This document shows, piece after piece, positions 9,119-54,764 of a stretch of 64,000 nucleotides of DNA (position 1 is the stretch's first letter; each line of letters starts with the position of its first letter). Source of the DNA: a virus. The DNA lies in IMG/VR virus record IMGVR_UViG_3300008448_000017, positions 1-64,000 of that record. One strand, 5' to 3'. Position numbers and translations under genes: made by a program. The notes under the pieces were generated by a model. The model was given only the letters and a program-made list of their open reading frames with translations. It ran no database searches and was not told the DNA's origin.

Positions 9119-9119
9119 T

Positions 9120-9713: not shown

Positions 9714-9719
9714 AGTTGT

Positions 9720-10343: not shown

Positions 10344-10355
10344 ATAAATATTGGG

Positions 10356-10808: not shown

Positions 10809-10813
10809 GGTGT

Positions 10814-24675: not shown

Positions 24676-24690
24676 TATTATACATATTAA
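24676..24690 (-). promoter_or_regulatory. Late-type promoter element, near-leaderless
   Basis: The coding strand reads TTTTTAATATGTATAATAAAATG; the ATG is the start of the tagged gene. The element overlaps the stop of the clamp gene. Confidence 0.6.
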
Positions 24691-25421
24691 AAAGCTCTGT
24701 CTTCTTTTCTTACCATATAATATTCACTGCGAGAATCTCCACTAGTGAATTCTAGTTTCATCAAACCACTAGCGTTCAAATATAATTTACCTTCTTTCAA
24801 ATCCTTGTTTATATTCAATATGTTTTTAAACTGGTTAGAGTTGAATGGTAGTTTAATGTTGTCTTTTTCTATTTTACCATATAGCTGGTATGTAATTTTG
24901 TTGTTGTGGCCATTTTCATCTCCAAATGTAAATAAGCACATTTTGTCTCCGTTCAAATCTATTTCGGTAGAAACTACCATATTGTCGATGTCTCCAAGTG
25001 CTGTTTTTGCTTTAACAAGGTTAAGCAAATCTTCCGAGTCAAGGGGAAATGTAGCATCCCATTCCATCTCTGTTACAGTTCCTACTTTGGATATTAAAAG
25101 CGGGTCTGCTAAAGCATATGTTAGGTTAAATTTGCTGTCTTGAAAATGTAGTTTGGTTGGTATGCTTTTGTGTTTTTCCAATTCAACAAGTAATTCACCT
25201 TGTGTGATGTTGAGCAAGCTCAAGAATTTTTTAGTGTCAAAGATGGCTAGCTCACAATCCTCAATGTCAATGTTTTGACAGGTGATTTTACCTATAACTT
25301 CTTTGTTTATAGACATAAAGTCTATTGTGAGTGTTTTGTCTTTGATTATCCACTTGACGGATTCGTTTTCGCCCAAGTAGTATTTGTTGATTGCTGCTTG
25401 TAAAACTAATTTATTAACCAT
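24687..25421 (-). CDS. 45: Sliding clamp, gp45-like, 244 aa
   Basis: Start MVNKLVLQAAINKYYLGENE; internal strands EDCELAIFDTKKFLSLLNIT and EMEWDATFPLDSEDLLNLVK, and the C-terminus LYLNASGLMKLEFTSGDSRS then EYYMVRKED, match T4-like DNA polymerase clamps. Length is near T4 gp45 (228 aa). It forms the trimeric ring that tethers gp43 and, in T4, also activates late transcription, which makes it relevant to the late promoter family described here. Confidence 0.88.
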   Translation of the reverse strand: MVNKLVLQAAINKYYLGENESVKWIIKDKTLTIDFMSINKEVIGKITCQNIDIEDCELAIFDTKKFLSLLNITQGELLVELEKHKSIPTKLHFQDSKFNLTYALADPLLISKVGTVTEMEWDATFPLDSEDLLNLVKAKTALGDIDNMVVSTEIDLNGDKMCLFTFGDENGHNNKITYQLYGKIEKDNIKLPFNSNQFKNILNINKDLKEGKLYLNASGLMKLEFTSGDSRSEYYMVRKEDRAF

Positions 25422-25859: not shown

Positions 25860-26567
25860 TCACTTATACTTCCAAATAAAACCCCCAGCTTGTTTTTGTT
25901 TCCCCGAAAGGCACCCTGCTATGTCTCCAGATCCTAGCCATTTTTTTGCTTCTGCCCGGCTGGTCCATTCTTTTATAAAATTACCTTCTAGGTCATGTTG
26001 AGTTATAGGTTTATTGTTGCGGGTTTTTCCTCTACTTGAATTGCTTATGTTTTGTTTATGTTGTTCTGTTTTAGGGATACCTTGGAGTTTTATTCCAACT
26101 TGAGGTTTCTTTTTGCCTTTATTTCCCTCCCCTATTTTTTTATTTCTAGTGAGATGTGAAGATATTTTAGCTCCAAATTCTTTGGGTCGTTTTATCCCTT
26201 TAGGGTAACCATTTGTTCCCATTTTCTTTTGGGATATTTTCCTTGCCCATTCGGGTTTATATTCTCTTTCTAAGGTATATTTTTGAATTTTTCTTTTAGC
26301 TTCTTCGGTTTGAAATTCAGGCCCACCCCCACCTTTTTTTCTTAGGTTTACTACTTCGAACCCCCATTGTCTAAATTGTTCTATCCAATATGATTCAATA
26401 GGGCCCCAATCTTTACGATCTAAACTATTTATTTCATCTATGTAAATATAAATAATTTGAGAACCGTAAGTTTTGATATGGTCATTCTTCCTTGAATTTT
26501 TTGTTTTTCCGATATAAACTTTGTTGGGGTCGCCGTAACAGTTTGTTACAAGGTATATTTTTGTCAT
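25860..26567 (-). CDS. GIY-YIG homing endonuclease with NUMOD motifs, 235 aa
   Basis: N-terminal GIY-YIG nuclease: IYLVTNCYGDPNKVYIGKTK, then ESYWIEQFRQWGFEVVNLRK and GGGGP. It is followed by NUMOD3-type DNA-binding repeats (PKEFGAKISSHLTRNKK, TEQHKQNISNSSRGK) and a C-terminal NUMOD1-like segment (ITQHDLEGNFIKEWTSRAEA). A late-type promoter lies upstream. It is a free-standing homing endonuclease placed between the polymerase (gp43) and clamp genes. Confidence 0.85.
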   Translation of the reverse strand: MTKIYLVTNCYGDPNKVYIGKTKNSRKNDHIKTYGSQIIYIYIDEINSLDRKDWGPIESYWIEQFRQWGFEVVNLRKKGGGGPEFQTEEAKRKIQKYTLEREYKPEWARKISQKKMGTNGYPKGIKRPKEFGAKISSHLTRNKKIGEGNKGKKKPQVGIKLQGIPKTEQHKQNISNSSRGKTRNNKPITQHDLEGNFIKEWTSRAEAKKWLGSGDIAGCLSGKQKQAGGFIWKYK

Positions 26568-26640: not shown

Positions 26641-29370
26641 TTATGAAAATGCAAAGAATTGTGATCTATAAGGGTTTAAAGAGAGTTCCCATCCAATATC
26701 ATCATACACAGTTTGAAGTTTGTTACGGATTACACTATCAAATAGTCCATCCCTATCTATATAGGTGTCTATTAACTGAGTGATTTCTGGTGGATCGTTA
26801 TATCCGTTATAGCCTATAACATCTATTTTGTATGGGTTTGGTTTTAAATATGCTATATACATCTTATCTCCAATTGTAAATTCAGGGTATTTACGTTGGA
26901 GGTTTTTAAATTTAAGTAGATCATTATATATAATACTTGCTTTCGTATTGATTGGACATTTCAATTTGAGTTTAGAGAATAATTCACCAGCCATAGGCTT
27001 ACGCTCAATATACTCGTCTAGTTTTTTCAATCCAGTTGGTTTAAGCAACTTTATCCACTCTATAGTGTGCATTGAATTTTTAAAGTCCATTACAAACTTG
27101 TCAATTTCGGTTTTGGATTTACCAAACAGTATACTTTTGATTAGCTCTTCTCCAAAGTTTCTAAAGTATGGAGGGAAATTGGATTTCATGATGTCCAACC
27201 CTTTCATCTCTAGTTCCTCGATTTCTACACCTTCTTTGTTTACAATGTAAATAGCGTAACGGCGTTTACCAGCCCAATATGCTTTTTCAGCAATTACTTC
27301 CTGCTTTAACACAAAGTGGTGTTTACCAGTCATATTGAACAGATCATGCGTTATACTGTTTAAGTTTGCATTTGCAACATCCTGTAGTTCCTCTGTTAAT
27401 ATCAACAATCGTTTAATTTTTTCTTCACGATCATTGTAGTTTAGATCAGGGTTACGGTGTTTGAGCAGATCTGTAAGTTCCATGTAGAGCGAATCTGTAT
27501 CTGATGCGATAACAAATTCCTTTGGTTCAATGTTTAATTGGTTGGATATATAGTTGTTTACAAATATGATTGACTCTTTCGTAAGTCTTTGTCCGCTGTT
27601 TGTAATAGCGGCAGAACATATTTTAAATCCATCTGTAAAACGCCATGAATTAATAGCGTATGTACCGTACAATGCATTTTGTAAGATTTTAAATGCCATT
27701 TGGTACAAATCATATAGTTTGTAGTTTGCCCAATCTTCTGCTTTACCTGCTGTTTTCTTAAGTGCTCTATAGTGCTCTCTTTGATCGAACCAATCCTCTA
27801 ATACCTCACATGCTATACTTTTTTTATCTGTTCTGAATAAGGCTCCACTAGCTGATATGGTCCAATTGTTTTGTTCAATTAGTTCTATAAGGTTAGAGGT
27901 AGCAATGGTAGCATCCTTTAAAACATATCGTTTTTTGTCTAGTTTTTGGATGTGTATTTTTTCTTCCGGATCACGTTTACGTAACTGCTCAAGTGAATTG
28001 TATTGTTCATAGTTGTTTTTTGTAACAATTCTACCCATTAAAGTTTCAACACCCAAATTCAATGATTTGATAATTGAAGGATATAGCGAGGTAAAGTCAA
28101 GGTCAGATACATCCGAATATAGTCCTGGTTTAGGGTCAAGTAAATATCCTCCAGCGTACGAATCGTATTTACGGACTGTTTTGATGTTGCGCTGTAGATA
28201 TTTGTTTGATAGGGTTTTAACAACTACTGTTTTATCCTCTATACTGTAGATATGGCCTTCAATTGTTGGGGTTCCTCGTTGTTGTACAACATGATCTCCC
28301 ACTTCCAATTCTCTAATGGTAGGGTTTGTGGTGGTTGGTTTGTTTGGCGCTACTATACCTTTACGTTTCAAGTATGTTAATATTGCACCTTCATTTAATG
28401 CAGTATTATAGTAGATAGATTCGTATGGTGTATGACATAGGTGGGAGATCAAGATAGTCAATTCAATGAATTTTTGTTTTTCCTCTAGCGCCTCTATAAT
28501 TTCAACATCTCGAATGTTGTATTCAACATATTTGAGTGGGTCTTCTTTAAACAATGTATCTAAATTACCATTGTATTCTATTTTACCTAGTTTAGCATAT
28601 TTTAAACCAACATCACCCAACTTGTATGATGATTCTTCTTTCATGATATACTTTTTTAACAAAAGCATATAATCTAGGCTGTTAACTAGTCCAATTGAAA
28701 TTGGAGAGTTCGGGTTATAGATATTTTCATTGATTTTACCCACAGGAGATAAACGAAATACTTCATCCCCCAAACGCTTTTTAATACGGTAGTATAGGTA
28801 TGGAATATCAAAGAAATCACTGTTGTATCCTACAACAATGGTTGGATCAATTTGTTCCCATTTGTTTAAAAACTTGCGGATAAGATCATCCTCGCTTTTA
28901 CAAGATACAATTTGCTTACCTTCAACTGTTGTGGTTTGAATGTTTTGCTGTTTATCTAAGATAAAACATATTTTTTCCTTTGCTCTAACATCAATTAAAG
29001 CAATAGCGGTTATTTCAGCATTTGCTTCCCTGATGGTGGTTGGTGTAAGAGCACCTAAAATTTCAATCTCAATATCCAGATACACTGTGTTGTGGTATTC
29101 TGGCATATCATCTGTTTTGTAGTATAGATCGCGTAGTAAAACTAGTTCACGGTCAATATCTTTCTCTAAGATGTTTGGATTTGTTTTATCATATTTGCCT
29201 TGGAAAGGGGAGCATCTTTCTCCAAAGAGCGTTTCACACTCCCCTTCATTGTCTATTTTGTAGAGTGTAGGCCAATATTGAAAGCAATTGATACCTTTTT
29301 TATCATCACGTATATAGTAATGGTATTGATCATCGCCAGGTTGGCGGTTATAGTAAATTGCTTGGTACAT
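26641..29370 (-). CDS. 43: Family B DNA polymerase, gp43-like, 909 aa
   Basis: Replicative polymerase with proofreading. Exo I VYLDIEIE (D99, E101), Exo II GYNSDFFDIP (~181-190), Exo III YNIRDV (D288), motif A SDLDFTSLYPSI (~422-433), motif B KILQNALYG (~561-569), motif C SDTDSLYM (D624, D626). Length matches T4 gp43 (898 aa). Between Exo III and motif A, about residues 355-400, is a beta-rich GDHVVQQRGTPTIEGHIYSI insertion resembling a KOW/SH3-like segment. Start in AAAAGTTATG context. Confidence 0.96.
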   Translation of the reverse strand: MYQAIYYNRQPGDDQYHYYIRDDKKGINCFQYWPTLYKIDNEGECETLFGERCSPFQGKYDKTNPNILEKDIDRELVLLRDLYYKTDDMPEYHNTVYLDIEIEILGALTPTTIREANAEITAIALIDVRAKEKICFILDKQQNIQTTTVEGKQIVSCKSEDDLIRKFLNKWEQIDPTIVVGYNSDFFDIPYLYYRIKKRLGDEVFRLSPVGKINENIYNPNSPISIGLVNSLDYMLLLKKYIMKEESSYKLGDVGLKYAKLGKIEYNGNLDTLFKEDPLKYVEYNIRDVEIIEALEEKQKFIELTILISHLCHTPYESIYYNTALNEGAILTYLKRKGIVAPNKPTTTNPTIRELEVGDHVVQQRGTPTIEGHIYSIEDKTVVVKTLSNKYLQRNIKTVRKYDSYAGGYLLDPKPGLYSDVSDLDFTSLYPSIIKSLNLGVETLMGRIVTKNNYEQYNSLEQLRKRDPEEKIHIQKLDKKRYVLKDATIATSNLIELIEQNNWTISASGALFRTDKKSIACEVLEDWFDQREHYRALKKTAGKAEDWANYKLYDLYQMAFKILQNALYGTYAINSWRFTDGFKICSAAITNSGQRLTKESIIFVNNYISNQLNIEPKEFVIASDTDSLYMELTDLLKHRNPDLNYNDREEKIKRLLILTEELQDVANANLNSITHDLFNMTGKHHFVLKQEVIAEKAYWAGKRRYAIYIVNKEGVEIEELEMKGLDIMKSNFPPYFRNFGEELIKSILFGKSKTEIDKFVMDFKNSMHTIEWIKLLKPTGLKKLDEYIERKPMAGELFSKLKLKCPINTKASIIYNDLLKFKNLQRKYPEFTIGDKMYIAYLKPNPYKIDVIGYNGYNDPPEITQLIDTYIDRDGLFDSVIRNKLQTVYDDIGWELSLNPYRSQFFAFS

Positions 29371-37630: not shown

Positions 37631-38236
37631 CTAAATTTTGTACCTCCAAATATATCCAACAGAAGTAGCATTTTCTCCTTTTCTTAAAGCATTGTTAATC
37701 GCTGTAGGGTTTCCACCAACATTTCGAGCTGCTTCTTCAATGCTGGGGTGTTCTTGGATAAAATTCCCTTGTTTGTCATATTGGAGGACAGGTTTGTTAT
37801 TGGATGGGATAGGTTTTCCTTTTTTAGATTGGCTTATTTTAAGTTTATTTTCTTCACTTCGTGTTTTACCTTTCCAATGGGAATTTTTTCTTTTACCTAC
37901 ATTCAATTTTCCTTTTTCGCTAATAAGTTTTCTGGTGTTTTCGTTGTGGGCTTCTACCCCACCTCCTCCAGGGTTTGAATTTAAACCTTCACTATATGAG
38001 TTATAGAATTCAATCCAGTATTTTTCTCGTTGAGCTAACAAAATTTCAATATCTTCTATCACTTCAAATGTATGGTTTTCAAAACCGTATATTTCAAAGG
38101 ATTGATTTAATTTTGGTTGTTTTTCAGTTTTACTACTATTCTTGTAATTCATCCATCTAACATGGATATTTTGTGAACATCCTATATAAACTTCTCCTTT
38201 TGGGTTTGTAATTTTATAAATTCCACTTTTTTTCAT
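37631..38236 (-). CDS. GIY-YIG homing endonuclease with NUMOD motifs, 201 aa
   Basis: N-terminus SGIYKITNPKGEVYIGCSQN (GIY...YIG), catalytic Arg in IHVRWMNY, and a Glu downstream. Then GGGG region, NUMOD3-like SEENKLKISQSKKGKP, and C-terminal NUMOD1-like QYDKQGNFIQEHPSIEEAAR with GYIWRYK. Late-type promoter upstream. It lies directly upstream of dpdA, 27 bases from its start. Confidence 0.85.
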   Translation of the reverse strand: MKKSGIYKITNPKGEVYIGCSQNIHVRWMNYKNSSKTEKQPKLNQSFEIYGFENHTFEVIEDIEILLAQREKYWIEFYNSYSEGLNSNPGGGGVEAHNENTRKLISEKGKLNVGKRKNSHWKGKTRSEENKLKISQSKKGKPIPSNNKPVLQYDKQGNFIQEHPSIEEAARNVGGNPTAINNALRKGENATSVGYIWRYKI

Positions 38237-38245
38237 GTTTCCCGT

Positions 38246-38259
38246 TTATTATACATATG
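38246..38259 (-). promoter_or_regulatory. Late-type promoter element
   Basis: The coding strand reads CACATATGTATAATAAACGG, 10 bases before the GIY-YIG endonuclease ATG. Confidence 0.55.
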
Positions 38260-38298
38260 TGGAAGACAATAAAAAATGCGGGAGACAGTAAAATATTT

Positions 38299-38784
38299 TT
38301 ACTCTTTTACTACTAGTTCTTCTCCTATCAATGCAAAGTATAGGTTTTGGAGTTCATGAACATGGATTAAATCTTTTAAAGACCAAGTTGGAGGTGAAAT
38401 TCCTTCCACTGTAATACCCATATGTTTTCTTTCAGGGTTAACAAAAGATTTCATAATGATGATGTTTTTTAATTTGTAAATATCACACCCACTCATATTA
38501 TAATCTTGTTTAACAAACCCAAATTTTAACAACCATTCTTCTGTTAGTGGGATTGGGTCAATGTCTAAATCTCTACATCCACTATGGATGGTTCCACCCA
38601 TTATTTTACCTGGGATTTCATAGAAGCAGATGATTTTGCATCCTTTCATTGCGGAGCCATCGTTAAATCCAGTTATTTGGAATTCATTGGTTTTATAGAT
38701 ATCGTATCCTGTCTCCCATCCATCTTCAAAGATTTCGTCTTTTATTTTAACCCAATTTCCAATCCTTAATTCACTTGCTCTCAT
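38299..38784 (-). CDS. Bacteroidetes-phage-type protein, 161 aa
   Basis: Start at 38784 (MRASELRIGNWVKIKDE). The pattern ELRIGNWV ... PIPLTEEWLLKFGF ... VHELQNLYFALIGEEL is a very common protein in phages and prophages of Bacteroidetes, of unknown function. It is strong evidence for the host group. Its neighbours (small membrane and lytic proteins) do not point to a role. Confidence 0.8.
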   Translation of the reverse strand: MRASELRIGNWVKIKDEIFEDGWETGYDIYKTNEFQITGFNDGSAMKGCKIICFYEIPGKIMGGTIHSGCRDLDIDPIPLTEEWLLKFGFVKQDYNMSGCDIYKLKNIIIMKSFVNPERKHMGITVEGISPPTWSLKDLIHVHELQNLYFALIGEELVVKE

Positions 38785-38788
38785 GACA

Positions 38789-39055
38789 TCAATTATATGC
38801 AAAATTTTTCTCTTGGGCAACTACTCTATATTCCATTTTACCATCTTCTGTTTCTTGAAAACGCGTAGCATCATATCCAATCCATTTCATACCCCATTTA
38901 GTGGTTCCTGAGTTTGAAATACCTTTAAGGATGTAAACTTGTTGATCTAAAAAATTACAATATTCTTCTTCTACATGGTATGTTTGTCCTTCTTTAACAC
39001 TTGCTCCACGAGGGAGATTTTTGTCATTGATACAAATTACTTTTTTCATTTCCAT
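38789..39055 (-). CDS. Small beta-rich conserved protein, 88 aa
   Basis: KKVICINDKNLPRGASVKEG then QTYHVEEEYCNFLDQQVYIL and KWGMKWIGYDATRF: a five-strand, SH3-like layout that I recall as a recurring short phage protein. The start MEMKK could equally be the second Met. It overlaps the transglycosylase stop by ten bases. Function unknown. Confidence 0.55.
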   Translation of the reverse strand: MEMKKVICINDKNLPRGASVKEGQTYHVEEEYCNFLDQQVYILKGISNSGTTKWGMKWIGYDATRFQETEDGKMEYRVVAQEKNFAYN

Positions 39056-39564
39056 TTTATTTTGTGATTTAATACTTTAATAGCATATCCATTTATTTGA
39101 GGATATCCTGTGTTATAGTATCCAAACACAATTCCCCAATTTTTATATTTTTTATACAATCTACGAAGCATTTTCATAGAAGTACGCACATTGTATTTTA
39201 TATCAGTTTTTAATTGTTCACGAGAAACATGGTCTTTGTTTAAACCTCTAGCAGTAGAAAGCAATACCTGCATTGGTCCCAATGCGTTTGCACAGGAGGT
39301 TTGTGCAGGGTTGTATCTCCAATGGAATGGTCCATTATATCCTGTTTCTACTTTAGCTACTCCATAAGCATATCGTTTAGGGATATTGAATGAATCAGCA
39401 TAGTATTCTATATAATGATACATTTGAATACAAGGAGGATCTGTTGGTGTAACAGGGTGCATATCCCGAAGTGGTTCTTGTGGTGGTGGGGATGGGGGTG
39501 GGGTTAAAGATGCTAATAGCAAAAGCCCCACAGATGATCCAAATAAAACTTTTATCTTATTCAT
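39046..39564 (-). CDS. Exported lytic transglycosylase (SLT/GH23), 172 aa
   Basis: Start at 39564 (MNKIKVLFGSSVGLLLLASL), an N-terminal hydrophobic segment fitting a signal or lipoprotein-like anchor, then a Pro-rich linker (TPPPSPPPQEPL). The domain begins near residue 65: RYAYGVAKVETGYNG (catalytic Glu) and CANALGPMQVLLSTARGLN (conserved G-x-MQ), then a YNTG motif. It would cut peptidoglycan from the outside of the membrane, distinct from the cytoplasmic lysozyme at 42493. ATG overlaps the upstream stop. Confidence 0.85.
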   Translation of the reverse strand: MNKIKVLFGSSVGLLLLASLTPPPSPPPQEPLRDMHPVTPTDPPCIQMYHYIEYYADSFNIPKRYAYGVAKVETGYNGPFHWRYNPAQTSCANALGPMQVLLSTARGLNKDHVSREQLKTDIKYNVRTSMKMLRRLYKKYKNWGIVFGYYNTGYPQINGYAIKVLNHKIKWK

Positions 39565-39874
39565 TAGTGACAGCATTTTGATAAATACGATTAGTATACA
39601 TTTTAAATATAGTCATTCCGATTTTATCTGAATAAATGACATATTTTCCTGTTTTTCTATCTAGCATGAGTAATTCGTTGCTTTCGTTTACAGCAATAGA
39701 GATTTCATCAGCATCATAAGCATGAGAGTAGGGGTTATCTTGTACATGAGGATTAGTATGAGGAAATCTTTTACCAATAAAGAATCCAATTACTAAAGCT
39801 CCTACAATGATAGCATATGTAAATGCTTTTTTAGCAAAGGCCATAACCTTTTCTTTGTTCAAAACTGTTTTCAT
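39557..39874 (-). CDS. Single-span membrane protein, 105 aa
   Basis: Start at 39874 (MKTVLNKEKVMAFAKKAFTY) with an upstream AAGTTATATG. A hydrophobic span (AIIVGALVIGFFIGKRF, residues ~21-37) is followed by a soluble part (ISIAVNESNELLMLDRKTGK, YVIYSDKIGMTIFKMYTN). It probably has a type II topology next to the exported transglycosylase; a spanin-like or anchoring role is possible but unproven. Confidence 0.6.
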   Translation of the reverse strand: MKTVLNKEKVMAFAKKAFTYAIIVGALVIGFFIGKRFPHTNPHVQDNPYSHAYDADEISIAVNESNELLMLDRKTGKYVIYSDKIGMTIFKMYTNRIYQNAVTNE

Positions 39875-39896
39875 ATAACTTATTTTTAGATTTAAT

Positions 39897-40409
39897 TTAA
39901 GATACGGAAGGATTTTTAGGAGGCCTACCTCTCCTTTCAATTTTTTTACCAGAACGTTCAAATGTTTTTAAACAATACATATAAAATTCCTCAGTTGTAC
40001 CATCAAAGTTTATAACATGTGTTTCATATTCCTGGCTGGTCAGAATAAATTCTCGGGTAAAGTTCTTTTTTAGCTCAGCTAACAGATCAACTTCTATTTT
40101 GTTAAAGTCTTCCCATAAACGTTTTCTACGAGCTAAATCAACAGCATGTTTTTCTAGTAAACGTTGAATATCACCTCTATATTCTTCTGCTTTTGCATTG
40201 ATTTCCATCTCACAAAACAACGCTTGCCAATAATAGTGGGAAAATTCATATTCTTTATTTTGAATACGTTGTAAAAACGTTGCTCCTTTTGGGAGTGGTT
40301 TTGTTTTTGAATCAAAACGCCTCCACCATCTAAATTGATTGTAGTTTAGCGGTTGTAATTTTTTGATTTCTTTAAGTACAAGATTGGGATTATTGATTCT
40401 ATATAACAT
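39897..40409 (-). CDS. Hypothetical protein with C-terminal AT-hook, 170 aa
   Basis: The body is helical and basic with many aromatics (NYNQFRWWRRFDSKTKPLPK, ...YEFSHYYWQALFCEMEINA). The last ten residues are RRGRPPKNPS, an AT-hook. The start follows AAATTAAGGTTATG with a TTCGTATATTT promoter. A DNA-binding role is likely from the hook; the rest of the family is unknown. Confidence 0.6.
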   Translation of the reverse strand: MLYRINNPNLVLKEIKKLQPLNYNQFRWWRRFDSKTKPLPKGATFLQRIQNKEYEFSHYYWQALFCEMEINAKAEEYRGDIQRLLEKHAVDLARRKRLWEDFNKIEVDLLAELKKNFTREFILTSQEYETHVINFDGTTEEFYMYCLKTFERSGKKIERRGRPPKNPSVS

Positions 40410-45517: not shown

Positions 45518-46468
45518 CTATAAATCGCTCCAATCAGCGGTGGATTTTGAATAATCGGTTACTCTATTTGCAAAAAAATCTTGATGTGTTTTACCACTTG
45601 TTAAATGTCCGAACCATTCTATTTGTTTTAAGAGGTTTGGATCAATATCATTATAGATAGCTGAATATCCAAGTTCTATTAGTTTTTGGTTTGCTCGTTC
45701 TTTGATGAAATTTTTGAGTTGGTCTTTGTTTAGTCCTTCAATATCACCCATTTCAAATGCTCTATCTATAAAGTCAAACTCTAATTTTACAGACAAATCA
45801 CATGCCTCAAAAATTGCTTGAGTTAGTTCTTTTGTATCTAGTTCTGGGTTTTCCTCTAGTAGTGTCCTATATAACCAACATCCTGCTTTTGAATGTAAAG
45901 ATTCGTCACGTACAGACCACTCTACAATCTGGCCGGTTCCTTTCATTAAGTTACGCAATTGGAAAGACATTAAGATAGCGAATGATGAGAATAAATTTAC
46001 ACCTTCTGTAAACGCTGAGAATATAGCTAGTGAAAGTGCTTTCTCATGTAGTGTTTCTCCAGGTAGTTCAACTAGGCGATCGATTTTGGCTTTTGCTTCT
46101 TCATCTTCCATGAATGCCTCAAAATCATCTAATCCAAGTTCCTCGTTTAAGCGAGCATAAGCCTCAGCATGTATCGATTCAAAATCAGCGAATGCACACG
46201 CCATAGCTTTAATTTCGTGTTTAGGAAACCATACTGCCACTTTTGTTGCCCAATAATCGTTTACATACGTTTCTGTTTGAGCGAATGACTTTAAAATGTT
46301 TCCAATTAGATTTTTTTCACTTTCGGTTAATTTAAGTTTCCAATCATTCAAATCAGATGATAAAGGTACCTCGTCTGCTAGCCAATGAGCTCTGTGTTGG
46401 TCTTTGTAAAATTCAAATGCAATTTGGTATTCAAATGGTTTGTAATGTGGGCGTAGTTCTGTAATCAT
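45518..46468 (-). CDS. nrdB: Ribonucleotide reductase small subunit, NrdB, 316 aa
   Basis: Ferritin-like di-iron protein. Ligands and radical: FADFESIHAEAYARL gives E-x2-H-x3-Y (the iron Glu and His and the tyrosyl-radical Tyr), TEGVNLFSSFAIL has the next Glu, and WSVRDESLHSKAG gives E-x2-H. All metal ligands and the Tyr are visible, so it should generate a normal radical. It reduces ribonucleotides with NrdA. Shorter than E. coli NrdB (376 aa) mainly at the ends. Overlaps gp41 by four bases. Confidence 0.95.
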   Translation of the reverse strand: MITELRPHYKPFEYQIAFEFYKDQHRAHWLADEVPLSSDLNDWKLKLTESEKNLIGNILKSFAQTETYVNDYWATKVAVWFPKHEIKAMACAFADFESIHAEAYARLNEELGLDDFEAFMEDEEAKAKIDRLVELPGETLHEKALSLAIFSAFTEGVNLFSSFAILMSFQLRNLMKGTGQIVEWSVRDESLHSKAGCWLYRTLLEENPELDTKELTQAIFEACDLSVKLEFDFIDRAFEMGDIEGLNKDQLKNFIKERANQKLIELGYSAIYNDIDPNLLKQIEWFGHLTSGKTHQDFFANRVTDYSKSTADWSDL

Positions 46469-47820
46469 GTGTTTAATTCAAAAAATTTATGAGACAACAT
46501 TCTTCTATCTAGGTCATCAAAATTGGTATTTTTAGATGGTGATTGCCTAGGTTCATCATCTGGGTCTGGGGTATCTGTAATTTCAAAATGCCCAGTGGAA
46601 GTATCAGCATTTAAATAAAAGGTAACTCCATCCATTCCATATCTGTTTTTCATAACGTGAAATCTACCTGTGTTATTTACTTTATCTTCTTTTTTTCTTG
46701 AAAGTGATAGGGCAAAGTCTGTAATCATCATTTTGTCGTAACTACCGGCTGCTTTATCACCTTCAATAACATCATCTTTTGATCCTGCACGGTTAACTTG
46801 TGATACACTCCATATTGGGAGATTTAATTCACGAGCTAGACCCTTTGTGCTAGTATAAATATCATCTATTTCAAATTTACGATCTGTAGATTTGCGTTTT
46901 GATGAAAGAAGATCTACATAATCTATAATGATCAAATCTGGTTGGATTCCTAGCGAGATGATTTTTTTAATATGAGACTCTATTGTATTAATTGTTGCTT
47001 TTCCTGTTGGGAATTCTTTAATAATCAATTCACCTTGTAGTTGTGGCATTACTTCTTCTACTTTATCTCGGTTTTCCAATATTTTGTTAACTGGGATGTG
47101 GGTAAAGAAAGCATCGTACCGTCTGCCAACATAATCTTCACCTAGTTCAAGAGTGTAATGTAAAACGTTATACCCCATTTGAACAGCATATCCGCCTAAA
47201 GCAACAAGTGACCAAGATTTACCACCTCCTGGGTTACCAAATATAAGGCCAAAATCTCCATTTCCAAGTCCACCTTGTAGCATTTCACTAATTTCAGGCC
47301 AAGGGGTTGGAACCGTATTTCGATTATCTTCTCTATACCTTGATTCAACATCTTTATTATATTCATGTCCTATATTTTTATCTTGTCCCGCTTTCATTGC
47401 ATTTTCAATCATCATTTTGATTGAATCATAATCGCCAGCTTTTAATAGATCTACACTACTTAATAGTGCTTTTTTTAGTTGTTGGTTTTTACAGAATGTA
47501 GAGAATTCTTCTTGTACATATTCTGTATCTTCTTCACTAGATTTATAAGCTTCTCTAAGTTGTTCTTTAACAGCAACTTGTAAAACCTCATTTGAGATTT
47601 TTTTCATCTCTGTTTTTAACACATCCATAGATGGATTGGTGTGATATTTTTCGTAATATCTAAGTATTTCTTTGATTATCCACTTATGAGCATCTTTCCC
47701 AAACACATCTGGGTCAAGTATATCGTTAATGTTTACAAGGAATTCCTTGTGGGTTAATAATGAAGAGATTACTTTGGTTTGGAACTGTGGTCCATATTCC
47801 TCGATTGAATGTAACGTCAT
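46465..47820 (-). CDS. 41: Replicative DNA helicase, gp41/DnaB-like, 451 aa
   Basis: RecA-fold helicase: Walker A GLIFGNPGGGKSWSLVALGG, Walker B PDLIIIDYVDLLSSKRKSTD, helix YTSTKGLARELNLPIWSVSQ then VNRAGSKDD, and arginine-finger end KNRYGMDGVTFYLNA. The N-terminal part (~1-150) has a DnaB-like helical domain. It should unwind DNA ahead of gp43 as a hexamer. Confidence 0.93.
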   Translation of the reverse strand: MTLHSIEEYGPQFQTKVISSLLTHKEFLVNINDILDPDVFGKDAHKWIIKEILRYYEKYHTNPSMDVLKTEMKKISNEVLQVAVKEQLREAYKSSEEDTEYVQEEFSTFCKNQQLKKALLSSVDLLKAGDYDSIKMMIENAMKAGQDKNIGHEYNKDVESRYREDNRNTVPTPWPEISEMLQGGLGNGDFGLIFGNPGGGKSWSLVALGGYAVQMGYNVLHYTLELGEDYVGRRYDAFFTHIPVNKILENRDKVEEVMPQLQGELIIKEFPTGKATINTIESHIKKIISLGIQPDLIIIDYVDLLSSKRKSTDRKFEIDDIYTSTKGLARELNLPIWSVSQVNRAGSKDDVIEGDKAAGSYDKMMITDFALSLSRKKEDKVNNTGRFHVMKNRYGMDGVTFYLNADTSTGHFEITDTPDPDDEPRQSPSKNTNFDDLDRRMLSHKFFELNT

Positions 47821-47856: not shown

Positions 47857-48885
47857 TTATTTGGATGTCACTAGATTTTGAAAAATATCTTTAATCCAAA
47901 ATTCTACATTTCGAATTAAACCACCTAGCTGGTCTTCATTATACATATTAATGAATTCTTTGGCATGGAGTTCAAGTGGGAATGGTTTGATAAATTCAGC
48001 AATATATTCTTTATCATCATCAGTCATCATGGGATTGGATAAATCCATGATCTTGTATTTGTTTTCAAGCATTTCTATATCATGTAGTATTCTAGCATAA
48101 ACTACATGCTCTTCCATTCTTTGTTCACTTAATTCTATTATATCATCAAATGATAGATGTTCAGTAGTTAATTCAGGGAATTTTTTGAAGAGTGTTTTCG
48201 CGCCTAACCCTTTAATTCCCGGTAGAGCATCGGAAGCATCCCCAAGAAGTGTTTTCATTAAAATAAAATTGTGAGGATCTAAACCGAATTTTTCTTTGAC
48301 AACAGACTCCGTGAAAAATTCCTTTTCAATTGGTCTATACACAATTACTTGCTTGCTTACCAACTGTAGGTAGTCTTTATCGCTCGAAACTATAAATACC
48401 TTTTCATCTTCTTTTTGAGGTAATACTGAGCTTAAATGGGCTATGATATCGTCTGCCTCTACTCTATCTAGCGAGATAACTTTAACAGGTAGTGTTTGAA
48501 GGTATTCTATAATTCGAACAATTTGGGAAACTTTTGCATCATCTTCCTCATCAATATTGTCAAACAATTCATGTTTGGTTACTCGAGTTAAATTACGGTT
48601 TGATTTATATTCGGGTATAATATTTTTACGATTGTTTGAGGAACCAACTCCATCAAATACAACTATAATTTGTGTGGGTTGTATCTGACGGGTTAGTGCT
48701 CCTAAAGATCTAAAAAAACCACCTAAACCACCAACGTGGGCTCCGTTTGAATTTACTGCGTTGATGATGGAAAAGTTTCGAAAGAATAAATTCAATCCAT
48801 CAATCAGCATATATCTTTCAGGTTGAGGAGCCTCAACATTGTTCTCTTGGACATTGTCCAAAAGTTTTAATAGATCTTTTTTCAT
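47857..48885 (-). CDS. rnh: 5'-3' FEN/RNase H-type nuclease, Rnh-like, 342 aa
   Basis: Start at 48885 (MKKDLLKLLDNVQENNVEAP), just after an AAAAGTTATATG context. FEN family motifs: YMLIDGLNLFFRNF, IIVVFDGVGSSNNRKNIIPE, RVEADDIIAHLSS, VFIVSSDKDYLQL and LLGDASDALPGIKGLGAKTL (helix-hairpin-helix). T4 Rnh of this type removes RNA primers. It lies between gp41 and uvsX. Confidence 0.9.
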   Translation of the reverse strand: MKKDLLKLLDNVQENNVEAPQPERYMLIDGLNLFFRNFSIINAVNSNGAHVGGLGGFFRSLGALTRQIQPTQIIVVFDGVGSSNNRKNIIPEYKSNRNLTRVTKHELFDNIDEEDDAKVSQIVRIIEYLQTLPVKVISLDRVEADDIIAHLSSVLPQKEDEKVFIVSSDKDYLQLVSKQVIVYRPIEKEFFTESVVKEKFGLDPHNFILMKTLLGDASDALPGIKGLGAKTLFKKFPELTTEHLSFDDIIELSEQRMEEHVVYARILHDIEMLENKYKIMDLSNPMMTDDDKEYIAEFIKPFPLELHAKEFINMYNEDQLGGLIRNVEFWIKDIFQNLVTSK

Positions 48886-48896
48886 ATAACTTTTAT

Positions 48897-49985
48897 TTAT
48901 TGTAAATCTTCTGGTTCGAACATATCGGAGATATCTCCTTTTTCGTCCCATTCGGAGTTGTCTTCAATGACTTTGTATTCTCCTTTACCTAAAATGTCTG
49001 CCCACTCACTAGCGTGTGATTTTTTATACTTGTCTATAGCAGTTGGTGAATCTGGGATAAATCCATGGGCTGTGCTTACAATTGTTCCAGTGGTGGCAAC
49101 TCCATTGATGTGGTTTTTATCACAAGCAATTTTGGTTCGCAATGCAAATTCTACCTTCTTTTTATCTTTTGTAGCAGATAATTTTGAAGTACCAGCGTTT
49201 GTAACATTTCCAAAAGTCAAACACAATGAAGCATCATAGTAAAATGTATCTCCACCTTTGTTTGTCATTTTGGGTTGTGACATTGGAGTTAGAGCAGGAG
49301 CAACACCTACTTTATTCACAATAAACAAGGTATTCGTGTATTTTGAGCTTTCCTTACGAGACATTACAATCTGTTGATTAATAAAGTTTCCGAATTGAGT
49401 TGCAATGGCTCCTGCGTTCCACATTGGGTTATTTGAGCCCTTTTCAATACTCATATCACATGCAATTGAACCCACTGAATCCCATACAAATAGTAAATCG
49501 TATGGTAGATTGCCTTTCTTTTGTTCTGTTAATAGATCAATGATAAAAGTAGCAATATCTTCAATTGAATTTAGAGTACTTCTATCCCTATAGATAAAGA
49601 ATCCATTTTGATCAATTATTTCACCCGTTGATTCATCTACTACATCTTCGATATCGAATCCCATCATTTTCCAATGGTTCCAATCGTGTTTCATTTCTGT
49701 GATTATCAAAACAGGTAATACACCCATTTTTTGAGCATTTACTGCTGTTTCAATAGTCATTGTGGATTTCCCAGTATTACTTTTCCCACGAACCATAGCA
49801 ATATGGCCCATTGGAATTCCTGGGATAGACAATGCTTCTTGTAATGCTGCTGAGAAGGGGATCCATCTTTGTTCTTTGAATTTAACATTAGAGGATAAAC
49901 CCTTATTTTCTTTAAATTTGTCTAAACTGAAGGCGGACTGGATTGCTTTTCCAGCCGCCATAGTTAGTGATTTTCTTCCGGCCAT
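48897..49985 (-). CDS. uvsX: UvsX/RecA-type recombinase, 362 aa
   Basis: RecA core: Walker A HIAMVRGKSNTGKSTMTIET, Walker B-like PYDLLFVWDSVGSIACDMSI, KYTNTLFIVNKVGVAPALTP, and LRTKIACDKNHINGVATTGT. The C-terminal tail is acidic (DNSEWDEKGDISDMFEPEDL). Length is close to T4 UvsX (391 aa). It promotes strand invasion for recombination-dependent replication. It starts in an AAGTTATG context after gp32. Confidence 0.92.
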   Translation of the reverse strand: MAGRKSLTMAAGKAIQSAFSLDKFKENKGLSSNVKFKEQRWIPFSAALQEALSIPGIPMGHIAMVRGKSNTGKSTMTIETAVNAQKMGVLPVLIITEMKHDWNHWKMMGFDIEDVVDESTGEIIDQNGFFIYRDRSTLNSIEDIATFIIDLLTEQKKGNLPYDLLFVWDSVGSIACDMSIEKGSNNPMWNAGAIATQFGNFINQQIVMSRKESSKYTNTLFIVNKVGVAPALTPMSQPKMTNKGGDTFYYDASLCLTFGNVTNAGTSKLSATKDKKKVEFALRTKIACDKNHINGVATTGTIVSTAHGFIPDSPTAIDKYKKSHASEWADILGKGEYKVIEDNSEWDEKGDISDMFEPEDLQ

Positions 49986-50000
49986 AACTTATTTTTAATA

Positions 50001-50840
50001 TTAAAACGGCATATCATCATCTTCATCATCAAACAAAGCATCAAATTTGTCTACTGGTTTTGCTGCTTGTTTTTTGGTAGATAAGCTGTAGTTTGATTTT
50101 GGTTCTTCTTGAAGTTCTGCTTCAACAGTTGCTGTTTCTTCAACCTCGTTTGCAACATCTTCCTCTTCAGGATCCAAGAAATTCTGTAGGATTGATTTTA
50201 GATCTTCAAATGATTTTTTGAATTTCTCTTGCATATCCAAAATATTAGGTTGATTGTCAAGCCAATATTCAATTTGCGAAGCATCATCTGATAGGGTAGA
50301 AGTTTTACGTTTTGGGCGAATAGATGATTTTAAAGCTTGGCGTCCACCAACATCACCCATTACAGCCTCTAGTGTAAAGTCAAATCCTTCATTGATGTCT
50401 GTAAAGTCACCATAATCCTCATCTTCAGCTAGTGCTAAAAGTTGCATATATGTTTCTTTACCAAATTCCCATAAACGAACACCTTTGTCTTCTTCACCGC
50501 GAACGATAACAGGAGCAAAAATACGCATTTTAGGGTCTAATTTTTTGGCTAATTGCCAATTGGTACGATCATTTGTACCACGTAGTTGCTTTGCAAATTC
50601 AACAATTGGATCTTTTTCACCCCAATTCGTTAATGCATAGATTGGAAATTTAGATAAACCATAGTGAAGGTGTACTTCTTTAAATGGGTTATTCTTGTCG
50701 AATTTTGATGGAACAATTCGAATTTGATACTTGCCTTCTGCTCTGGGCTTCCACTGTGTTAAGGAATAATCAACCTTTTCTTTCTTTTGCCCGCTTGTTT
50801 GTAAGGCGTTGAGTTTGTTTTTAATCAGACTTAAATCCAT
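50001..50840 (-). CDS. 32: ssDNA-binding protein, gp32-like, 279 aa
   Basis: KVDYSLTQWKPRAEGKYQIR, VRLWEFGKETYMQLLAL and GRQALKSSIRPKRKTSTLSD match gp32 OB-fold proteins, with an acidic C-terminal tail (FDALFDDEDDDMPF) used to contact partners. No cysteine occurs anywhere, so the T4 zinc site (one His, three Cys) is missing. Short basic N-terminal part for cooperative binding is present. Confidence 0.9.
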   Translation of the reverse strand: MDLSLIKNKLNALQTSGQKKEKVDYSLTQWKPRAEGKYQIRIVPSKFDKNNPFKEVHLHYGLSKFPIYALTNWGEKDPIVEFAKQLRGTNDRTNWQLAKKLDPKMRIFAPVIVRGEEDKGVRLWEFGKETYMQLLALAEDEDYGDFTDINEGFDFTLEAVMGDVGGRQALKSSIRPKRKTSTLSDDASQIEYWLDNQPNILDMQEKFKKSFEDLKSILQNFLDPEEEDVANEVEETATVEAELQEEPKSNYSLSTKKQAAKPVDKFDALFDDEDDDMPF

Positions 50841-50898
50841 ATAACTTGTTTTTATTAATTACAACTTAAATATAATAACCTTTATTTAATACTCCAAA

Positions 50899-51360
50899 TT
50901 AGAGTTCAACTATCCTGAAGATTTTTGTGTTTAATTGCTTGATCTCATTATGTTGAGTTAGCAATATACAATTTTTGTAATGTTGCCAATTTATGGCAAA
51001 TCTTGTGTCAACTACTCCACCGTTTAAACTTTTGATAAGTTCGTTTAGAGCGTTAATTGTATAAAGGGAGTTTGTTTCTTTTTTTCTATGTACTAGAATA
51101 GTATTTTCTGGGATTCCATCAACATTTCCTTGATCAACATTGTAAGTGATAGCATATTCATTATTGCTTTTGACATGCAATACAAACATTTTATTATATA
51201 ATATATCGTACTTCTTGGTTAACTCAGAAACTAAGGTATCTAACCCCTCAAGTGGTGTAAAAGTACAGAACAGTCTATTATTCATTGAAAAGAGATCAAT
51301 TGTATCAAAATCATACTGGTGATACATATCGGTAGGGGGTTCCAAAATTGAGTTGTACAT
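50899..51360 (-). CDS. Conserved hypothetical protein near gp32, 153 aa
   Basis: MYNSILEPPTDMYHQYDFDT; central KMFVLHVKSNNEYAITYNVD; C-terminal RFAINWQHYKNCILLTQHNE. No recognised motif. It lies between the HNH endonuclease and gp32 and its stop lies in a short ACTC-TAATTTG-GAGT hairpin. A protein of this kind is found in other T4-like marine phages, from memory. Function unknown. Confidence 0.6.
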   Translation of the reverse strand: MYNSILEPPTDMYHQYDFDTIDLFSMNNRLFCTFTPLEGLDTLVSELTKKYDILYNKMFVLHVKSNNEYAITYNVDQGNVDGIPENTILVHRKKETNSLYTINALNELIKSLNGGVVDTRFAINWQHYKNCILLTQHNEIKQLNTKIFRIVEL

Positions 51361-51432
51361 AACTGTTTAATTAAAATTGTAAGTGTTTCCTTTTTTAAAT
51401 TTGACTTGTAATTGAATTATACACAATATTTT

Positions 51433-52179
51433 TTATATTTCCAAATTAGGATCATAAATTTCTTTTTTTCCTATATTTCTATTTCCTCTTAGAGTATCTC
51501 CAAATTGTTGAGATATTTCTGTTGTTTTCCATAACGGAAAAAGATTTTCTAAACTCCAACATTCTTTAATTTCTTCAACATTCAAAACATCAAATAGATT
51601 TTGTGGTTTAATATGATGAATTTCCCAAACATTTCCAAAATTATCCCAACACATTCCGTTCCTGAATTTGTTTTCTATATGGGATTGGAGTTGATCAAAT
51701 GTATAGGAAATTATTTTGGAAAAAGATAAATTTTTGTTTTTTCCTTTATCTTTAAAAAATAAATGGAAATTTGCTTTCATAACAGTTTGTAACTTAAATT
51801 GAATGTTATTTTTATATTTTATCTTCCAATTTAATTTTCTTTTTTCTTTTACATTATCTTGTTTAGAATAAATTAACAATCGTTCTTTATTATCTTGATA
51901 GTATTTTTCCCAATACCCATTTTCCTTGTACTTTTTATTGAATTTATCTCTTTGGATCTGATATTTTTCTGGGTTGTTTTGTTTCCATATTTTATGTCGT
52001 TCTGTTTCTTTTTTAGTATAATATTGTTGGTTTTTTAAATATGACTGTTTTACACTAATTTTTACACATATCTTACATCTTTTATTAAAACCATCTTCTG
52101 TGTTTTTATTTTTATTAAAATTACATAAAGGTTGGGGGGTTTCTTTTAAATGGCATTTTGGGTTATTACATACTTTCAT
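51433..52179 (-). CDS. HNH homing endonuclease, 248 aa
   Basis: Start at 52179 (MKVCNNPKCHLKETPQPLCN) three bases after a late-type element; a longer frame would run into the promoter. N-terminal Zn finger (CNNPKC, CKIC). Long charged middle. C-terminal HNH core: DNFGNVWEIHHIKPQNLFDV followed by ECWSLENLFPLWKTTEISQQ. Typical free-standing phage homing endonuclease. It lies between the family A polymerase-like gene and the gp32 operon. Confidence 0.88.
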   Translation of the reverse strand: MKVCNNPKCHLKETPQPLCNFNKNKNTEDGFNKRCKICVKISVKQSYLKNQQYYTKKETERHKIWKQNNPEKYQIQRDKFNKKYKENGYWEKYYQDNKERLLIYSKQDNVKEKRKLNWKIKYKNNIQFKLQTVMKANFHLFFKDKGKNKNLSFSKIISYTFDQLQSHIENKFRNGMCWDNFGNVWEIHHIKPQNLFDVLNVEEIKECWSLENLFPLWKTTEISQQFGDTLRGNRNIGKKEIYDPNLEI

Positions 52180-52180
52180 T

Positions 52181-52195
52181 TTATCATAAATATTG
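52181..52195 (-). promoter_or_regulatory. Late-type promoter element, near-leaderless
   Basis: The coding strand reads ACTTTCAATATTTATGATAAAATG, where ATG is the HNH start. Confidence 0.6.
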
Positions 52196-52220
52196 AAAGT
52201 CTCCAAGTTTTGTAAATTTT

Positions 52221-53483
52221 CTATGAAATATTATGATAATTTGTGCCTTTTTTGAGTTTAACTTGTAATTTGTTTTTTTTAAATACTTTTAATATTTCTT
52301 TTAAAATATCTTTTTCACTTTTATCTACGTCAAATAAAAAAGAATCATAGACATACAAGATCAACTTTGTATTTTTTCCTCTAAGTAATTTTAAAATATC
52401 CCACAATATTAATATGTTCTGGGAAGTTTCTAGGTTTTGAAGTAAGTAATTTAATAACTTTTGTGGATTCATATCCTCCAACTGGTCTCTTTTATATATG
52501 TGTTTTGAAATTGGACATTCAATGTATCCTTGATAGTTAAAGGTATCCCACAAATCATCTGTGTATGATTGCATTTTCTTAAAAAATTCAAGGTGTTCAT
52601 ATTCTTTCCAAACACCACCATACATTTGTTTAAATGTTATTTCTTTAGACTTGGCGTAATCCACTCCATACATTTCAGCAAAACTTTGATGAATATCATC
52701 GCTAGAAAAAGTATAATCAAGTAAATTGGCCAAAAGAGTAGGATGATAAGCGCTAATATCCATTTCAAGGAAAAAATCATTACGCGGGATGAAACATTTT
52801 CTTTCTCCATTGTCTTTGTTTAATGCTGCAAAATTTATACCCCCAAATTTATTGGAAGGGCGAGTTGTTGTTGTACTTAAATTATATTGGGTGTATATAT
52901 AACCTCCATTATTTTTGTTAAAATATTCCTCAAATAAAGGAACATTTACTTTTATTCCATTGCGCTCTATAGCGTTAAATACAATAGTTGTTTTATCGTT
53001 ATAGAATTTGTTTGGTTGTATATCAAAGTATTCTTTTAATGTATCAAAATGTCTTTCACAAACTTCATAATGTTTAACAATAGGAACAATTATGTTTATA
53101 TTTTTTTGCTCTGGGTATTTGGAGTAAAAGAATGAATGTGTTGTAGTTGTTTCTTTTTCAAATTTAGGGTGTAGTAGGGTAAGGGAAACTATAGTTGGGT
53201 GGTAAAAGTAGTGTAAAAATTCCTTTTTATCTATCACATATATTTTCTCTATACTATATAATAGTTCTTGAACTAAATTAAAATCAACGCGAAACGTTTC
53301 GCTATGATGAACAGTCACCATATGCCCCTTACTTCCATCTACCGGTTTAATATACACGGTAGATACGCTGTTTTCGGTTGGGTGGATGGTAGGTGAGAAA
53401 GGAATTACTTCAACATATGCTTCCTTTATTTTTATTGTGGAGAGTATGTCTATTTTTTCCTTATCTTCTATCAACCAGTACAT
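52221..53483 (-). CDS. Short family A DNA polymerase-like protein, 420 aa
   Basis: The C-terminal ~220 residues have the family A palm/fingers order. TTRPSNKFGGINFAALN (R208; TGR-x-S and PNLQN-like region); motif A FFLEMDISAYHPTLLANLL (D242); O-helix KEITFKQMYGG with K280, F284, Y288 at the PolI K758/F762/Y766 spacing (the Arg754 place is Tyr); motif C LYVYDSFLFDV (D380, with DS instead of DE). The N-terminal 170 residues match no exonuclease. A GTATCTT-type promoter precedes it, unlike the flanking late genes. Confidence 0.75.
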   Translation of the reverse strand: MYWLIEDKEKIDILSTIKIKEAYVEVIPFSPTIHPTENSVSTVYIKPVDGSKGHMVTVHHSETFRVDFNLVQELLYSIEKIYVIDKKEFLHYFYHPTIVSLTLLHPKFEKETTTTHSFFYSKYPEQKNINIIVPIVKHYEVCERHFDTLKEYFDIQPNKFYNDKTTIVFNAIERNGIKVNVPLFEEYFNKNNGGYIYTQYNLSTTTTRPSNKFGGINFAALNKDNGERKCFIPRNDFFLEMDISAYHPTLLANLLDYTFSSDDIHQSFAEMYGVDYAKSKEITFKQMYGGVWKEYEHLEFFKKMQSYTDDLWDTFNYQGYIECPISKHIYKRDQLEDMNPQKLLNYLLQNLETSQNILILWDILKLLRGKNTKLILYVYDSFLFDVDKSEKDILKEILKVFKKNKLQVKLKKGTNYHNIS

Positions 53484-53489
53484 GGGATG

Positions 53490-53503
53490 TAAGATACAAA
53501 AAG
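53490..53503 (-). promoter_or_regulatory. GTATCTT-type promoter for family A polymerase gene
   Basis: The coding strand reads TACTTTTTGTATCTTACATC, six bases before the ATG at 53483. It lies between two late structural regions. Confidence 0.45.
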
Positions 53504-53507
53504 TATT

Positions 53508-54107
53508 TTACTCTCCCACATAGTATTTTGAAAAATCTTCTTTAAAGTACTGTGAAAAACCATACCACTTTTGTTTTTGCTCAATTAACGAGATCAAATT
53601 TTTATTAGTGTTATATACTTTTTCTCTATCCCCTTTTATATACCATAAAGTATCCAATGGGGTGTATAAATCCCAGGCTATTTGTGATGATTTAGCTTTT
53701 AATTGAGAATATGTTGGTTGGTTAATTTCTACATATATCAATTCGTTGTTTTTCTTACAGAAGAAACGTTGAAATACTCCCAAGGATATATCTTTTTGGG
53801 TAGGTGTTGTTGGATTATATTGAGGTAATGATCTATTTGGGAGGGAGTTTGATATAGATTCATTAAGAGAATATATTATTGGAGATGTTAAGTCTGTGGT
53901 TGGTGGGGTTGGTGGGGTTATGGATTGAATTGAGTTTTGAACAATTAAAAGTATATTCTGTCCGTCTTGTGGTGTTTTACCTGTGTATTTTCTTCCATTA
54001 GATATTTCATAGTAATATCCTTTATATTCTTCCTTTGTGGTGGATAGAATATATTCATTACCATTGGTAAATAAATTGGATTTTATTTGAGATTTTGGAA
54101 AGTACAT
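53508..54107 (-). CDS. Putative virion protein, 199 aa
   Basis: MYFPKSQIKSNLFTNGNEYI then YYYEISNGRKYTGKTPQDGQ, a Thr/Pro-rich linker (SITPPTPPTTDL), and IAWDLYTPLDTLWYIKGD with a final YGFSQYFKEDFSKYYVGE. I recall this protein from other marine large phages, next to hub and tail lysozyme genes; function unknown. It ends the tail gene run. Confidence 0.6.
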   Translation of the reverse strand: MYFPKSQIKSNLFTNGNEYILSTTKEEYKGYYYEISNGRKYTGKTPQDGQNILLIVQNSIQSITPPTPPTTDLTSPIIYSLNESISNSLPNRSLPQYNPTTPTQKDISLGVFQRFFCKKNNELIYVEINQPTYSQLKAKSSQIAWDLYTPLDTLWYIKGDREKVYNTNKNLISLIEQKQKWYGFSQYFKEDFSKYYVGE

Positions 54108-54116
54108 TTATATTTT

Positions 54117-54764
54117 TTAATTGCTATATATTTCATCTACTATGTCTATTACCGATCTAGCATATCCTATTCGTATGTTTTGGGTAGCTTTATATGCTTG
54201 TGGATTTGCTTTTCTATTTAAATATGTACCCGGGACTTCAAATTTTTCTAGGACATATATTGTGCTTTCTTCAATAGATTTACTGGTTGATAGTTTTTTT
54301 AGTACAGAGGGATAGGAGGATTTTAATTCATTCCCTAAGAACTGGAGTTGAAAGTTTAGATTAAATAGTATATTTGGGTTTTTATTTGCAGCATTTTCTA
54401 GTTTCCTTCTCCTAGATGATGTCCATTGAACTATACCTATTCCTCCACTTCCTCCTATATTTGGATTACTTTCAGCCGCTTTAGGATTAGCTTGAGATTC
54501 CCCTAATATATTCCCTAAAAATCCTATAGTTCCTTCTCTAGTTATCCCTAATGATTTAAAATAGTATGCTATTTTTCTAATAGTATCTTTTTTAGAACTA
54601 AGAGTTATTTTTTCTGCTACAAACGATCTAACCTCTCCAATCAATCCCGAAACACTATTTAATGGTGGGTTGTTGGTTGATTCAAGTGAAGAACCTAGGG
54701 ATCTTGTTCCTTCATCTATTAACTTGTCTACTATAGCTTTTATTTCTTGATACGATAATGGCAT
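54117..54764 (-). CDS. Tail-associated lysozyme, 215 aa
   Basis: Start at 54764 (MPLSYQEIKAIVDK), two bases after the hub stop in an AGTTATG context. Domain (phage tail lysozyme, Phage_lysozyme2 type): IGFLGNILGESQANPKAAES then GIGIVQWTSSRRRKLENAAN. The Glu in LGESQANP is the probable catalytic residue. It should cut host peptidoglycan at injection as part of the tail tip/hub. Confidence 0.8.
   Translation of the reverse strand: MPLSYQEIKAIVDKLIDEGTRSLGSSLESTNNPPLNSVSGLIGEVRSFVAEKITLSSKKDTIRKIAYYFKSLGITREGTIGFLGNILGESQANPKAAESNPNIGGSGGIGIVQWTSSRRRKLENAANKNPNILFNLNFQLQFLGNELKSSYPSVLKKLSTSKSIEESTIYVLEKFEVPGTYLNRKANPQAYKATQNIRIGYARSVIDIVDEIYSN

Follow-up and report, generated by a model that had tools for sequence, protein, structure and literature searches.

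What use would a T4-like phage with a complete family B replicase have for a second, small DNA polymerase? The question is raised by a gene in the stretch of viral DNA analysed here, hereafter the window (64,000 nucleotides, positions 1 to 64,000 of IMG/VR record IMGVR_UViG_3300008448_000017). An earlier note on this DNA had described a protein of about 420 residues with family A motifs beside a complete gp43 system, and both parts of this description hold. The minus strand from 53483 to 52221 is one open reading frame of 420 aa with an ATG start, the plus strand having many stops there, and the window phage also encodes a gp43-like family B polymerase (PolB) together with a clamp (24687-25421) and a clamp loader (18242-19168). 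The two polymerase genes are:

52221..53483, minus strand: divPolA1-type auxiliary family A DNA polymerase, 420 aa (open reading frame, profile, model, conservation)
26641..29370, minus strand: gp43-like family B replicase, 909 aa, the main polymerase (phrog_262, E 2.5e-141)

Judged by its sequence and its predicted structure, the 420-aa minus-strand protein is a family A (Pol I-type) DNA polymerase. Its C-terminal part matches the Pfam DNA_pol_A model (PF00476) with E 2.4e-5 and 23.9 bits, the curated cut-off being 34.3, and its 40% identical relative, gp001 of Flavobacterium phage immuto, lies above this cut-off with 42.7 bits. PHROG 17, annotated as "DNA polymerase", matches at E 1.4e-10, and a profile built from 25 family members finds the Klenow fragment in the PDB (E 3.7e-5). 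The match of the family profile to Klenow is colinear in three blocks, comprising the palm-start helix (ERNGVKID), a stretch that runs from the TGR motif to the O helix and includes motif A, and lastly motif C. A direct phmmer search of the PDB with the window protein alone gave no meaningful match, and a profile comparison of divPolA1 with immuto gp199 alone was not significant. The divPolA1 family has been published previously as an auxiliary phage polymerase with an intact palm, a truncated thumb and a dead exonuclease (Yutin et al., 2024, Virol J 21:200, PMC11348598), and the window protein is an added member, matching the published divPolA1 of immuto phages with E 8e-84 in tblastn and with 39% identity over 439 columns in blastp. 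Matches to divPolA1 occur in at least 579 viral contigs. Cellular homologues are confined to 7 contigs, which are probably phage as well, since all come from metagenome-assembled genomes and several have the same phage neighbours. A match in Roseobacter phage CRP-738 was rejected as a family member, being a full-length PolA. At one locus (L026, 8001-9201) the polymerase is spread over two frames (residues 1-117 and 133-417), owing to a frameshift or a sequencing error.

An AlphaFold2 model of the window polymerase, made with 22 sequences, reached pLDDT 91.1 and pTM 0.88. The 50 best PDB matches that Foldseek listed are all family A polymerases (E 5.6e-17), with query-normalised TM-scores of 0.71-0.76 against Klenow entries, so that the check for a missing palm by structure prediction, suggested in the earlier note, found a Klenow-like palm and fingers fold. 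Conservation was followed over 156 sequences, the most distant of them sharing 25% identity with the window protein, in which R208, N217, D242, H247, K280, Y288, K342, Q349 and D380 are invariant (156/156). The positions that correspond to the Klenow active site are the following:

52860..52862, minus strand: Arg208, equivalent of Klenow Arg668 (156/156, Klenow alignment)
52758..52760, minus strand: Asp242, motif A catalytic Asp, equivalent of Klenow Asp705 (156/156, ungapped Klenow alignment)
52743..52745, minus strand: His247, at the position of Klenow Glu710, the ribose gate (His in 156/156, ungapped against Klenow DYSQIELR)
52620..52646, minus strand: Lys280 to Tyr288, O helix, motif B (Klenow Lys758, Phe762, Tyr766; K280 and Y288 in 156/156, F284 in 152/156)
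52344..52346, minus strand: Asp380, motif C catalytic Asp, equivalent of Klenow Asp882 (156/156)

The marks of family A, namely the aspartates of motifs A and C, the K...F...YG pattern of motif B and Arg668, are thus all invariant or nearly so across the 156 sequences. The residues singled out earlier (D242, K280/F284/Y288 and D380) were all recovered, D242 and D380 as the catalytic pair, and the sequence likewise bears out the replacement of the O-helix arginine (Klenow R754) by Tyr276 and the motif C reading YDS. Throughout the family the position of Klenow Glu883 is Ser or Ala, motif C reading Y-D-S or Y-D-A. The median dN/dS among close relatives is 0.146 (94 pairs), and together with the invariance of the active-site residues this shows that divPolA1 is under purifying selection as an enzyme.

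In family A polymerases, Klenow Glu710 is the residue that excludes ribonucleotides, and the Foldseek matches include Bst E658A-rCTP structures, which concern the equivalent residue. T7-type RNA polymerases carry a Gly at the ribose-gate position of motif A and no Phe at the Klenow 762 position; the window protein, with His247 and Phe284 at these two positions, was rejected as a single-subunit RNA polymerase of this type. For human PrimPol, an unrelated enzyme, replacement of the sugar-gate Tyr by His permits efficient use of rNTPs beside dNTPs (PMC6362072). The invariant His at the Glu710 position and the coupling of the polymerase to the small gene hyp153, described below, are what is added here, with no claim to priority; neither was found in the text of PMC11348598, its figures and supplements apart.

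Two further regions set the family apart from Klenow. The span from the palm-start Glu173 to Arg208 measures 24-44 residues (median 36) in the 156 sequences, compared with about 128 in Klenow by the coordinates of the profile alignment, from which it follows that about 90 thumb residues are missing in divPolA1. The N-terminal 125 residues or so appear, from sequence and model, to be a remnant in place of the 3'-5' exonuclease:

53109..53483, minus strand: degenerate 3'-5' exonuclease-like N-terminal region, residues 1-125, boundary approximate (model, Klenow match, column counts)

According to column counts, with the residue placed by eye in our own reading, the first Asp of the exonuclease motif I (DxE) has become Tyr/Phe23 (Tyr/Phe-Val-Glu); motifs II and III were not recognisable by eye in the N-terminal region of divPolA1 sequences. 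The published analysis of the family describes all three exonuclease aspartates as replaced and the domain as inactivated (PMC11348598), and at motif I the sequence examined here agrees with it. The earlier statement that there is no exonuclease is right for the activity but not for the domain, which in the published models of relatives is inactivated rather than absent.

The divPolA1 gene opens a replication block that adjoins the tail genes, and it does not lie within the late region, where the earlier note had placed it. From the polymerase onwards, the order in the window is HNH, hyp153, SSB, UvsX, 5'-3' exonuclease, DnaB and RNR, and the denominators given for SSB, UvsX, exonuclease and DnaB are the loci long enough to show each gene:

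51433..52206, minus strand: HNH/endonuclease VII-like gene between the polymerase and hyp153 (phrog_1035, E 1.8e-4)
50899..51360, minus strand: hyp153, 153 aa, candidate divPolA1 partner (neighbour of divPolA1 across the family)
50001..50840, minus strand: gp32-like single-strand binding protein, SSB (PF08804, phrog_1192; downstream in 82/82 loci)
48897..49985, minus strand: UvsX/RecA-like recombinase (phrog_97; 66/67 loci)
47857..48951, minus strand: 5'-3' exonuclease, PF02739, homologue of the Pol I N-terminal nuclease (E 3.3e-35; 56/56 loci)
46465..47820, minus strand: DnaB-like replicative helicase (phrog_19, E 5.5e-83; 44/44 loci)

Gene order of this kind is an association and not a mechanism. 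A private GTATCTT promoter, which had been proposed for the polymerase gene, finds no backing in the counts: there are 17 copies of the heptamer where 12.6 are expected, a number also reached by 16 of 100 shuffles; a sigma-70 scan of 50500-54500 gave 29 sites, about equal to the 23.7 found in shuffles (sd 5.1). Apart from the identical contigs L006 and L007, no locus has the HNH gene next to the polymerase, and this gene is probably an inserted mobile (homing) endonuclease. Three HNH/homing-endonuclease-like genes are present on the minus strand of the window (51433-52206, 25860-26567 and 19165-19905), beside divPolA1, the clamp and gp43, and the clamp loader, respectively; they flank replication genes, as mobile insertions often do.

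The gene most tightly tied to the polymerase is hyp153, which comes next after it in 116/119 loci, with a gap of at most 60 nt in 103/108 and a start-stop overlap in about 63, the exact start codon being uncertain. When the search was reversed and started with the most divergent hyp153, divPolA1 lay upstream in 70 of the 74 loci with at least 1.5 kb of upstream sequence; in the other four this stretch is just 1.7-2.5 kb long, and other family members carry insertions as long as 2.3 kb. Of 50,697 phage records, six contain hyp153 and these are exactly the six with divPolA1, whereas across all 50,697 the SSB of the block matches 18 and the 5'-3' exonuclease 1575. The hyp153 and divPolA1 counts are not independent, since the phages share descent for the block. 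The small protein has a conserved stretch, HRKKE(S/T)NTLYTINALN, and searches with the whole protein gave no Pfam or PHROG match and, from a weak model (pLDDT 65), no fold match better than E 0.25.

The polymerase coexists with two kinds of main replicase. A PolB match accompanies it in the records G000, G001, G002, G017, G018, G022 and G025, in Microcystis phage Mel-JY01 and in LR756508, and a full-length PolA does so in immuto (gp199, 777 aa, with an exonuclease domain) and in G004; a search for PolC as the replicase of G019-G021, records that may be fragments, gave no match. Because the small polymerase stays while the PolA or PolB replicase changes, divPolA1 is not the interchangeable replicase. 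The window phage is related to immuto, with major capsid, terminase, portal, sheath, GroEL and many metabolic genes at 45-77%, and their replicase pattern matches the in-place replicase swapping described in PMC11348598. In both phages the main replicase is located near GroES/GroEL, the gp43-like PolB at 26641-29370 in the window and the PolA at 37898-40231 in immuto. In G001 (8679-11194), G017, G018, G022 and G025 the PolB match falls in a frame of only 550-620 aa, and some of these short-PolB relatives have the C-terminal part in a separate frame, as in a split or interrupted gp43. Just outside the window, record G000 has two adjacent frames, 64801-66507 and 66561-68285, each of which matches the tail sheath protein of immuto at about 50%; the sheath gene may be duplicated here.

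As to function, we lean, at somewhat better than an even chance, towards an active family A polymerase without proofreading and with a truncated thumb, which is not the replicase and serves distributive gap filling or repair with its own gene block. Such an enzyme would carry out short DNA synthesis of low processivity at primed gaps, flaps and recombination intermediates, acting together with the gp32-like SSB, UvsX, the free-standing 5'-3' exonuclease and DnaB. The polymerase and the separate exonuclease would then represent the two ends of a bacterial Pol I, one removing primers or flaps and the other filling the gap, and hyp153 may supply the grip on DNA that was lost with the thumb. The 5'-3' exonuclease itself needs no divPolA1 partner, since it is widespread in phages without divPolA1 (1575 records), and in T4 gap filling is done by gp43 itself, which counts against the need for a second enzyme.

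Other roles can be set against gap filling. The His at the ribose gate raises the possibility of an enzyme that makes or extends primers and takes ribonucleotides, either a primase-polymerase or a Pol alpha-like extender of gp61-type primers; the PrimPol precedent for rNTP entry after a Tyr-to-His change (PMC6362072) is in its favour, as are a location by DnaB and SSB and a lack of proofreading such as Pol alpha shows. His is still bulky, however, and may keep ribose out, and neither a primase domain nor a zinc-binding motif was found in the window polymerase. Moreover, a separate gp61/DnaG-like primase (immuto gp091-like) is encoded by 8/8 other divPolA1 records of at least 68 kb, comprising immuto, Mel-JY01, LR756508 and all five further ones, which argues that priming is provided elsewhere. 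These primases were found with immuto gp091 as query, the PF01807 search having given few matches because phage primases score low; that no gp61 is visible in the window is of limited meaning, as the 102-kb record to which the window belongs may be a fragment. The primase-polymerase role that had been derived from the missing gp61 is thus unlikely, and we consider primer synthesis or extension improbable as a whole. Translesion or damage-tolerance synthesis would agree with the lack of a working exonuclease, the reduced thumb, the change of O-helix R754 to Tyr and the presence of Pol nu and Pol theta, family A enzymes that perform such work, among the structural matches, but the neighbours of divPolA1 belong to the replication fork and to recombination, not to lesion repair. 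Its variant, a polymerase for modified phage DNA, draws on the deazaguanine genes of the window phage and immuto. Mel-JY01 (complete) and the 484-kb phage LR756508, which both have the polymerase, gave no match to QueC or DpdA, so that modified guanine is not a condition for keeping divPolA1 and the deazaguanine-template role offered in the earlier note becomes unlikely; we doubt the lesion and modified-template readings together.

A place in the replisome, for example as a dedicated lagging-strand polymerase with the exchangeable PolA or PolB doing the rest, would agree with the replication-gene context, which is fixed while the "regular" replicase is exchanged, a point also argued in PMC11348598. 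The lack of proofreading, the short thumb and the size of 420 aa speak against it, as do the full-size replicase in each well-covered genome and the clamp and clamp loader of the window phage, and we judge it quite unlikely. A dead or structural relic of a polymerase might be suspected from the unusual substitutions at the Glu710, Arg754, His881 and Glu883 positions, but it is scarcely credible given that both catalytic aspartates and five further active-site residues are invariant in the 156 sequences at a dN/dS of 0.15. More boldly, divPolA1 and hyp153 might form a two-subunit, rNTP-tolerant phage counterpart of Pol alpha, in which hyp153 would serve as the thumb and the His at the ribose gate would admit ribonucleotides; it would extend gp61-type primers with no proofreading and then hand over to the PolA, PolB or PolC replicase. 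This is a long shot.

A literature search under the name divPolA1 gave only the 2024 paper and its preprint, and no measurement of activity was found. Hundreds of environmental phages carry this second polymerase, and its interest lies in an enzyme that has dropped most of the thumb, has exchanged the otherwise conserved ribose-gate Glu for His and is kept in a constant block with a small neighbour. It offers a compact system in which to test directly what the thumb does, how the sugar is selected and how polymerases share the work.

Among known systems, the closest is immuto gp001, a divPolA1 with 39-40% identity over nearly the whole length, the same truncated thumb, apparently inactivated exonuclease and intact catalytic residues, and the same downstream replication genes; the window phage differs in having a family B rather than a family A replicase and an HNH gene that separates the polymerase from hyp153. 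With Klenow and Pol I, divPolA1 shares the palm and fingers and motifs A, B and C, whereas it has about 90 thumb residues fewer, His for Glu710, Tyr for Arg754, Ser or Ala for Glu883 and apparently no active proofreading site; unlike in bacterial Pol I, the 5'-3' nuclease of divPolA1 phages is a separate gene. T4 gp43 is likewise a DNA polymerase of a T4-like phage, but it belongs to family B, has an exonuclease and corresponds to the separate 909-aa gene of the same window. The divPolA2 of barbaviruses is also a second, divergent family A polymerase beside PolB and without a working exonuclease; by its published description (PMC11348598), its N-terminal globular domain is unrelated and its gene neighbourhood varies, whereas the neighbourhood of divPolA1 is fixed.
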